A DNA stretch of 34,039 nt from a bacterium. Its GTDB lineage: Bacteria; Patescibacteriota; SICC01. This document shows, piece by piece, positions 12,399 to 32,896 of the stretch (position 1 is the first letter of the stretch; each line of letters starts with the position of its first letter). The stretch spans positions 1 through 34,039 of the forward strand of contig JAUYKS010000024.1 of the NCBI GenBank assembly GCA_030699935.1, written 5' to 3'. The position numbers and the translations under genes are program-made. The notes beneath the pieces were generated by a model. That model did no database searches. It saw only the letters and a program-made list of their open reading frames with translations, and was not told where the DNA came from.

Positions 12399-12532
12399 TA
12401 TATACATCTTTTTCGTTACTTCCGAGAATTGCAGATGTTTTTGAAAAAGATTGGAAATGTTTCTGCAAAACATGTCCAAAACATATGCAAAACATTGGAA
12501 ATGTTCGGAACCAACAAAAAAGACATATATTT
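12399..12532 (+). repeat. Palindromic AT-rich interspersed repeat, copy 1 (long variant)
   Basis: CTTTTTCGTTACTTCCGAGAA ... TTCGGAACCAACAAAAAAG; internal 11-bp units CTGCAAAACAT / GTCCAAAACAT / ATGCAAAACAT at 12463-12495. Confidence 0.85.
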
Positions 12533-20606: not shown

Positions 20607-20677
20607 CTTTTTCGTTACTTCCGAGAATCTGCAAAACATCTGCAAAAGATTGCAGATGTTTGGAAGTAAGGAAAAAG
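20607..20677 (+). repeat. Palindromic AT-rich interspersed repeat, copy 2
   Basis: TIR CTTTTTCGTTACTTCC (20607-20622) / GGAAGTAAGGAAAAAG (20662-20677), 15/16 complementary; inner hairpin AAACATCTGCAA-AAGA-TTGCAGATGTTT. Confidence 0.9.
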
Positions 20678-26898: not shown

Positions 26899-26969
26899 CT
26901 TTTTCGTTACTTCCGAGAATCTGCAAAACATCTGCAAAAGATTGCAGATGTTTGGAAGTAAGCAAAAAG
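26899..26969 (+). repeat. Palindromic AT-rich interspersed repeat, copy 3
   Basis: TIRs CTTTTTCGTTACTTCC / GGAAGTAAGCAAAAAG; flanked by ATACCT at 26893-26898 and 26972-26977. Confidence 0.9.
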
Positions 26970-29173: not shown

Positions 29174-29312
29174 GCGAAGCGCGCGGTGAAGCGCGCGGTG
29201 CGCGGTGAGCGGTGAGTCGCGCGGTGAGCGGTGGGTAAAGTGGGCATGGTAAACACCGTTTTGGCGGCGAGTCGCGCGGCCCGGGACTTCCGCGGCCCGG
29301 GATTTAGTATTC

Positions 29313-29383
29313 CTTTTTCGTTACTTCCGAGAATCTGCAAAACATCTCCAAAAGATTGCAGATGTTTGGAAGTAACAAAAAAG
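29313..29383 (+). repeat. Palindromic AT-rich interspersed repeat, copy 4
   Basis: TIRs CTTTTTCGTTACTTCC / GGAAGTAACAAAAAAG, 15/16 complementary. Confidence 0.9.
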
Positions 29384-29444: not shown

Positions 29445-29562
29445 GTGGCTAACGCCTGGCTAATGCCTGGCTAGTACGTGATAAAACCACGAAAAACCAC
29501 GATAAAACTACGAAATCACGGACCGGCACGCCTGGCTAACGCCTGGCTAACGCCTGGCGCGC
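29445..29562. repeat. Two blocks of short direct repeats (cctggctaacg) flanking accacgataaa-type repeats
   Basis: ctaacgcctggctaatgcctggctag ... cacgcctggctaacgcctggctaacgcctggcg. Confidence 0.7.
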
Positions 29563-29628
29563 CCGCCCTGCTTAGGCATGCCCAAATCACTCAAAAAACG
29601 CCTCAACAAAGGTAAACCCACTCATTTC

Positions 29629-29656
29629 TTGACAGCCTGAAACCGTGTGCTAAAGT
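29629..29656 (+). promoter_or_regulatory. Promoter TTGACA-16-TAAAGT upstream of Rpf-like gene
   Basis: -35 29629-29634, -10 29651-29656. Confidence 0.6.
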
Positions 29657-29663
29657 TTGCATT

Positions 29664-29689
29664 CGTGTGCCATAGAGCACACGTTTTTT
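29664..29689 (+). terminator. Promoter-proximal terminator/attenuator hairpin
   Basis: CGTGTGC-CATAGA-GCACACG-TTTTTT; 7-bp perfect stem plus T6. Confidence 0.65.
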
Positions 29690-29741
29690 AATCAGTCCCT
29701 AGTTCAGTAATCGTATTTCAAGATTTCAAGGAGGTCCCTCC

Positions 29742-30254
29742 ATGAAAACACCACACATCAAAGTCCCTACCGACATTTCCAAGAAAACGATTTCAAAATC
29801 GATTTCTAAATTGAGCCGCGGCGGAGCGGTACTTGCCGCTGCCGTCCTGAGCCTCGGATCGACCGGCGCCGATGCAGCGGCGAACCAGGCGTTCGTCGCC
29901 AACGCGCCCGACCTGAGCCCCGCGGCGGTCGGCGCTCCCAAGGCGGATCCGATCGTCGTCCGCCGGATCGTGAAGGTGCAGCCCGAGCCGGAACCGCAAC
30001 CGGTCGCGCAGCCAGCGGTGCAGCAAGGCGGCGGCGGATGCGGCCTGGATACGATCAAACAGCGCGAGTCAGGCGGCGACTACCGTGCCCAGAACTCGTC
30101 CAGCTCGGCTTCCGGCGCCTATCAGGTCATTGACGGCACCTGGGGCGGCTACGGCGGCTACCAGCGGGCTGGAGACGCCCCGAAGAACGTCCAGGACAAG
30201 TTCGCGCAATCGCTCTACGCCAAGCACGGCTCGAGCCCCTGGATCGTCTGCTAA
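29742..30254 (+). CDS. Secreted Rpf/transglycosylase-like protein
   Basis: N-terminal signal-like helix, Pro-rich linker, CGLDTIKQRESGGDYRAQNSSSSASGAYQVIDGTWGGYGGYQRAGDAPKNVQDKFAQSLYAKHGSSPW. Confidence 0.8.
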   Translation: MKTPHIKVPTDISKKTISKSISKLSRGGAVLAAAVLSLGSTGADAAANQAFVANAPDLSPAAVGAPKADPIVVRRIVKVQPEPEPQPVAQPAVQQGGGGCGLDTIKQRESGGDYRAQNSSSSASGAYQVIDGTWGGYGGYQRAGDAPKNVQDKFAQSLYAKHGSSPWIVC

Positions 30255-32731: not shown

Positions 32732-32784
32732 CTTTTGCAGATGTTTTGCAGATCTTTTGCAGATTCTCGGAAGTAACGAAAAAG
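32732..32784 (-). repeat. Interspersed repeat, copy 5 (one TIR plus three 11-bp modules; second arm missing)
   Basis: CTTTTGCAGAT GTTTTGCAGAT CTTTTGCAGAT tctc GGAAGTAACGAAAAAG. Confidence 0.85.
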
Positions 32785-32867
32785 GACATAGAAAAGGGCG
32801 GAGAGGGCTAAAGAGGGGCCGAACAACATCGATCCTCGGCAAGGCGGGGGCAGCACCCGTATGGGGG

Positions 32868-32896
32868 TTGACATTCGGGTGATCTTTTGGTATTAT
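32868..32896 (+). promoter_or_regulatory. Sigma70-type promoter TTGACA-17-TATTAT upstream of surface protein
   Basis: -35 32868-32873; -10 32891-32896. Confidence 0.75.

Follow-up and report, generated by a model that had tools for sequence, protein, structure and literature searches.

Candidate terminator hairpins at the predicted transcription start sites of cell wall hydrolase genes in Patescibacteria

Introduction

Attenuators, attenuation linked to the transcription start site, and stabilizing structures at mRNA 5′ ends are already known. In Bacillus subtilis, the short leader of pyrG contains a terminator, and attenuation is prevented by reiterative addition of G residues at the start site (PMC4448216), a system that links start-site events to read-through. 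In Streptococcus, the YjbJ motif (WRC-39-1) is a structured leader with terminator-like features that precedes a lytic transglycosylase gene (PMC11109978). Stem-loops are also found at the very 5′ end of mRNAs for secreted or envelope proteins, as in B. subtilis aprE and Escherichia coli ompA. Finally, CRP of Mycobacterium tuberculosis controls rpfA via the sequence TGTGA-N6-TCACA (PMC4117774).

Here we describe a leader from a 762-kb, 93% complete Patescibacteria genome, found within a 34,039-nucleotide stretch of DNA (contig JAUYKS010000024.1), which we call the window. Like pyrG-type attenuators, the leader has a promoter and then a predicted intrinsic terminator before the coding region; unlike them, its terminator stem begins at the predicted start site and there is no competing antiterminator. 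There is also no homopolymer at +1, and reiterative transcription of the pyrG type was rejected on that ground. The YjbJ motif is similar in being a structured, terminator-like leader of a lytic transglycosylase gene but consists of two hairpins roughly 30 nt upstream of the Shine-Dalgarno sequence, is confined to Streptococcus, and has no demonstrated sequence relation to the leaders described here. The aprE and ompA stem-loops share the extreme 5′ position, whereas nearly all of the Patescibacteria stems are followed by a U run. A search of open-licence papers returned no description of a class of start-site hairpins on Patescibacteria cell wall hydrolase genes.

Results

A hairpin and T run directly follow the promoter of an Rpf-like gene

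An earlier note on this DNA had proposed that a promoter, TTGACA-16-TAAAGT, starts transcription at the foot of a hairpin with a T6 tail, upstream of a gene for a secreted Rpf-like enzyme. Direct reading of the plus strand from 29629 to 29689 gave TTGACA-16 nt-TAAAGT-7 nt-CGTGTGC-CATAGA-GCACACG-T6, and a program scan recovered the identical promoter (10/12) and terminator at the locus. The features of the region are as follows, where G001 and G002 are the two related genomes described below.

29629 to 29634, plus strand: −35 element TTGACA, identical at 6/6 positions in G001 and G002
29645 to 29656, plus strand: putative extended −10 element, GTGTGC then TAAAGT (TGC-TAAAGT), with TAAAGT itself at 29651 to 29656
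29663 to 29665, plus strand: predicted transcription start at the first stem bases, placed from the 7-nt gap between the −10 element and the stem, which is identical in three genomes
29664 to 29683, plus strand: start-site hairpin CGTGTGC-CATAGA-GCACACG, with arms at 29664 to 29670 and 29677 to 29683 and the loop at 29671 to 29676
29684 to 29689, plus strand: U run of the terminator-like element, T6 in the window and T6 and CT5 in the relatives
29724 to 29747, plus strand: small hairpin TTTCAAGGAGGTCCCTCCATGAAA over the Shine-Dalgarno sequence and start codon, identical within the genus and absent in G002
29742 to 30254, plus strand: gene for a secreted Rpf-like transglycosylase of 170 amino acids (PF06737, E = 2e-12)

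The gap between the −10 element and the stem reads TTGCATT, and the ATG start codon at 29742 lies 52 nt 3′ of the element, after AAGGAGG. The hairpin had a folding energy of −10.6 kcal/mol (z = −4.5) that was equaled by 0 of 200 shuffles, and 0.2% of shuffled versions of the upstream region (301 nt) contained a perfect 7-bp stem followed by at least five T residues. Taken as an intrinsic terminator, the stem and U run gave −10.6 to −11.3 kcal/mol across the three genomes, with T6, T6, and CT5. The leaders of the window (11.7) and G001 (12.7) also passed a d'Aubenton-Carafa-type score, which that of G002 (−11.3) failed because its run begins with C. In the window and both relatives, the terminator was located in the leader, between promoter and gene. 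No mutually exclusive antiterminator, leader peptide, or aptamer was found, the hairpin was retained in both minimum free energy and centroid folds, and an Rfam 15 scan of 29560 to 29800 matched no model. We conclude that the arrangement of promoter and hairpin is not due to chance.

The identity proposed for the downstream gene was likewise borne out. Besides its PF06737 domain, the protein has the catalytic glutamate in an E-SGG motif (E109-SGG) that is invariant, together with C100 and C170, and its nearest solved structures in the PDB were M. tuberculosis RpfC, RpfE, and RpfB. The hairpin TTTCAAGGAGGTCCCTCCATGAAA was considered as a control point that sequesters the Shine-Dalgarno sequence and was rejected, as it is restricted to the genus and the accessibility of the Shine-Dalgarno sequence is ordinary among genes with GGAGG (29th percentile).

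Two other features of the window were recorded. A near-consensus promoter, TTGACA-17-TATTAT, lies at 32868 to 32896 with no start-site hairpin and a long leader after it. Copies of a dispersed element roughly 70 bp long, which is bounded by inverted ends of 16 bp (CTTTTTCGTTACTTCC ... GGAAGTAACRAAAAAG) and contains ATCTGCAAAAC as an internal repeat, lie at 29310 to 29380, 20607 to 20669, 26899 to 26967, 12408 to 12500, and 32736 to 32786. The element gave 22 matches in the source genome, several of them overlapping or partial, and none in the two relatives, and looks like a lineage-specific REP/MITE-like repeat.

The stem and its distance from the promoter are conserved

Conservation of the leader was examined in family f1, which comprises the window's genome and the metagenome-assembled genomes (MAGs) Saccharimonadia bacterium CRAIB_MAG60 and Patescibacteria Baikal-deep-G193, the sole sampled members of its order and class. 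All three genomes encode the Rpf-like protein, one orthologue having only about 40% protein identity. The conservation check held in both relatives: each leader has TTGACA, a 16-nt spacer ending in GTGC, TA(A/T)AGT, 7 nt, and the identical stem CGTGTGC/GCACACG. Stem bases were identical at 14/14 positions, and the loops were CATAGA (6 nt, window), GCTTTGA (7 nt), and AGCTA (5 nt). Among the 19 positions of the spacer and discriminator, by contrast, a count by eye found agreement across all three genomes at only about 5, so the identity of the stem indicates strong constraint. Moreover, leader and intergenic lengths varied, whereas the gap from the −10 element to the stem was constant.

When 380 Patescibacteria genomes were searched for this stem with its T run, the three family members had the pattern and 0 of the 377 others did. 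Each of the three has a single copy of the dyad, always at the Rpf-like gene, and in 400 kb of a genome of the same genus, the only convincing combination of promoter, hairpin, and T run was that of the Rpf-like gene.

The upstream repeat is a predicted extended −10 element

The earlier note had also pointed to a second GTGTGC 20 bp upstream of the hairpin and suggested that the DNA could be an operator as well as an attenuator. The repeat is indeed present, at 29645 to 29650; its counterparts in the two relatives are TTGTGC and TCGTGC, such that GTGC alone is retained. TGN preceded the −10 element in 17 of 52 strong promoters in the sampled sequence versus a TG background of about 5%. We conclude that the upstream GTGTGC is a predicted extended −10 element.

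The hairpin dyad was no better suited to an operator. Its half-sites lie 5, 6, or 7 nt apart and so suit a hairpin rather than a fixed DNA site for a dimer, and because there is one copy per genome, there is no operator regulon. The TGTGC-N6-GCACA dyad of the window, near the promoter of an rpf gene, is reminiscent of the CRP site of M. tuberculosis rpfA, but the spacing changes to N7 and N5 in the relatives. Further, a cNMP-binding (CRP-type) protein, PF00027, was found in none of the three and in 10 of 14 control genomes. CRP/cAMP control was therefore rejected, as was an operator built on GTGTGC repeats, whether direct or inverted. We conclude that, of the original proposal, the promoter-proximal terminator or attenuator is upheld in its anatomy and conservation, that the operator half falls, and that the tight control of the enzyme it envisaged is presumptive.

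The arrangement recurs at hydrolase genes of other families

Recurrence was scored as a promoter matching at least 10/12 within reach, a hairpin beginning 5 to 9 nt after the −10 element, and at least four T residues in seven; the promoter and hairpin cutoffs were set after the first examples had been seen. Among other Patescibacteria genes of the PF06737/Rpf type, 5 of 46 had the arrangement, with other stems, against 0.3 expected from shuffles, and most of the 46 were without it. Three of the five (L086, L087, and L088) turned out to be SLT lytic transglycosylases, and the SLT_2 family was therefore tested. Out of 56 distinct lytic transglycosylase or Rpf-type genes, 33 had a promoter, and the start-site hairpin and T run were present at 21 of these 33 and absent from 12. 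Without L086, L087, and L088, which had led to this test, the count was 18 of 30. The cases fell in 13 families (f16, f23, f37, f48, f85, f87, f88, f98, f100, f106, f113, f128, and f146), to which the window's family and f52 (an Rpf-LysM gene, L026) are additional.

Stems in the hydrolase leaders began 5 to 9 nt, mostly 5 to 7 nt, from the −10 element, and hairpins at other distances numbered 0 to 3 per 5-nt bin. A T run followed 21 of 23 start-site hairpins at hydrolase genes versus 2 of 34 at control promoters. Six of 197 neighboring control open reading frames had the arrangement, and these were two glucosaminidase, two LysM-CHAP, and two PF06737 genes. Genome-wide controls were samples of about 140 to 400 kb per genome, mostly from MAGs; in 2.1 Mb drawn from six genomes, the arrangement was present at seven of the 412 promoters that had an open reading frame. 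Five of the seven precede wall hydrolase genes (an Rpf protein, three transglycosylases, and a glucosaminidase), and the other two encode an Hsp20 and a secreted protein with no Pfam match. Fisher's exact test of 21/33 against 2 of about 407 non-hydrolase promoters gave a P value of about 2e-25, which is optimistic given the relatedness of the genomes, although 13 families are represented. Staphylococcus genes for SceD-type transglycosylases had no such leader. The leaders matched no known RNA family in Rfam, and a riboswitch reading was dropped; viral contigs gave 0 matches to the hairpin pattern, and a phage origin was rejected. We conclude that cell wall hydrolase genes across the phylum share an arrangement that is nearly absent from the rest of the sampled sequence. 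This suggests that a common, previously undescribed form of control acts on these genes.

The two sampled cases outside the hydrolases are noted separately. The Hsp20 gene of genome G066 (L118:16052-16113, minus strand) could reflect chance or a link to stress. The secreted protein of genome G061 (L102:18929-19998) has at least 315 amino acids and a weaker start-site hairpin.

Structure and not sequence is shared between families

Stems differed by family (TCTTCCC, GTTGCTTTC, ATTCCCAT, TCCCAA, GCTTCT, GTGCCAA, and CGTGTGC), with CUUC/GAAG stems recurring in families other than the window's, and loops ranged from 3 to 9 nt overall and from 5 to 7 nt in f1. In an alignment of 23 leaders that was fitted to, and thus leans toward, the structure, all six modeled pairs showed two-sided changes. 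The covariation score was 0.62 versus 0.35 in shuffles, was reached by 0 of 500, and dropped when the partners were slid. A covariance model of 21 leaders recovered them among megabases with E values below 1e-3 and did not recover the leaders of the window and its order-mates. Sequence homology of the window's leader with those of other families was therefore rejected, and its membership in the class rests on architecture and gene type. We conclude that an independent origin of the window's element is possible.

Several transglycosylase loci depart from the pattern. Leaders of family f46 (L185, L186, and L161) share a different structured element at the start site, GATCTGAGGG...GGAGGGTGG. It lies 58 nt upstream of the start codon, lacks a U run, and has a Shine-Dalgarno-like 3′ arm. 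At L166:2140-2207 (minus strand), the leader is short and its 3′ hairpin arm, GGGAGGA, probably doubles as the Shine-Dalgarno sequence, so that this hairpin may act on translation. The transglycosylase frame of genome G118 at L142:1815-2276 is broken by one TAA, and a glucosaminidase gene just downstream has a start-site hairpin of its own.

Discussion

A strong promoter directly before a terminator is the usual anatomy of attenuated genes. We give about an even chance to a reading in which a minimal intrinsic terminator sits where a strong sigma70-type promoter starts transcription and attenuates expression of the autolysin gene. The data show the anatomy, its conservation, the covarying stems, the U run, and the confinement to this gene class; termination, its efficiency, and regulated read-through are what we infer. 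The 5′ hairpin arm would consist of the first bases of the RNA, and by the time the hairpin was clear of RNA polymerase, the enzyme would already be on the U run, which spans roughly positions +21 to +26. A fraction of complexes would stop there and release a useless RNA of about 25 to 30 nt, and only those that read through would yield mRNA for the wall enzyme, with its 5′ end base-paired. Output would then be the product of promoter strength and read-through, and a strong promoter with an immediate terminator would make that output adjustable and low. The stem is preceded by no transcribed sequence that could hold an aptamer, a leader peptide, or a T-box, and neither a sensor domain nor an antiterminator fold was found for the f1 leader. 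Any regulation of read-through would thus have to come from a factor acting on the nascent hairpin or on the polymerase, such as an RNA-melting or hairpin-binding protein, and RNA-melting proteins of the cold-shock type are a known way to act on nascent hairpins.

In the main alternative, a stem beginning at +1 would shield the transcript from an RNase J-type 5′ exonuclease and from pyrophosphohydrolase and so give a long-lived mRNA; the U run would then be fortuitous or an unpaired spacer. Such a role is possible, if tentative: the start of the stem is tied to the predicted +1 in every case, RNase J was found in each of the three genomes of the order, the strength of the promoters accords with high expression of an abundant secreted enzyme, and the 5′ stem-loop of B. 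subtilis aprE, as cited in PMC3997798, provides precedent. A stabilizer would have no need of the U run, yet the run followed nearly every hydrolase hairpin and few control hairpins, and stabilization leaves the restriction to wall hydrolases unexplained. The lock to the predicted +1 fits both roles, and the U run favors termination. The two are not exclusive, as mRNA produced by read-through would keep the hairpin at its 5′ end.

Under attenuation, the arrangement would be a common Patescibacteria device for secreted cell wall hydrolases. A stronger version, which we regard as rather unlikely, is that the Rpf-like and SLT transglycosylases, glucosaminidases, and LysM-CHAP enzymes form a common start-site attenuation regulon under a trans-acting antitermination factor, sharing architecture and not sequence. 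Another proposal is that the hairpin is a recognition element, at which a dedicated protein bound to the RNA, or less likely to the DNA dyad, blocks or frees transcription or translation. The family-invariant stem of f1 exceeds what a terminator alone needs, and the recurrent CUUC/GAAG stems and the restriction to one gene class point in the same direction. We nonetheless consider recognition improbable: the variable loops are at odds with a fixed DNA dimer site, the CRP-type match fails, stem sequences differ among families, and the binding protein is itself hypothetical. It is very improbable that the hairpin merely ends read-through from upstream genes and lies at the start site by accident, as intrinsic terminators do occur in these genomes but the −10 gap is constant in three genomes despite differing leader and intergenic lengths, the arrangement recurs in 13 other families at hydrolase genes that are unlinked, and the gene upstream in G002 possesses its own terminator.

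Gene regulation is almost unexplored in the Patescibacteria (CPR), epibionts that live on other bacteria. If termination is real, hardly any attenuator could be more compact, as the stem, loop, and U run together take up only the first 25 to 30 transcribed bases. As a simple RNA element, it would be open to direct tests outside organisms that are hard to grow. A device confined almost entirely to enzymes that cut peptidoglycan would show how such dangerous enzymes are dosed.
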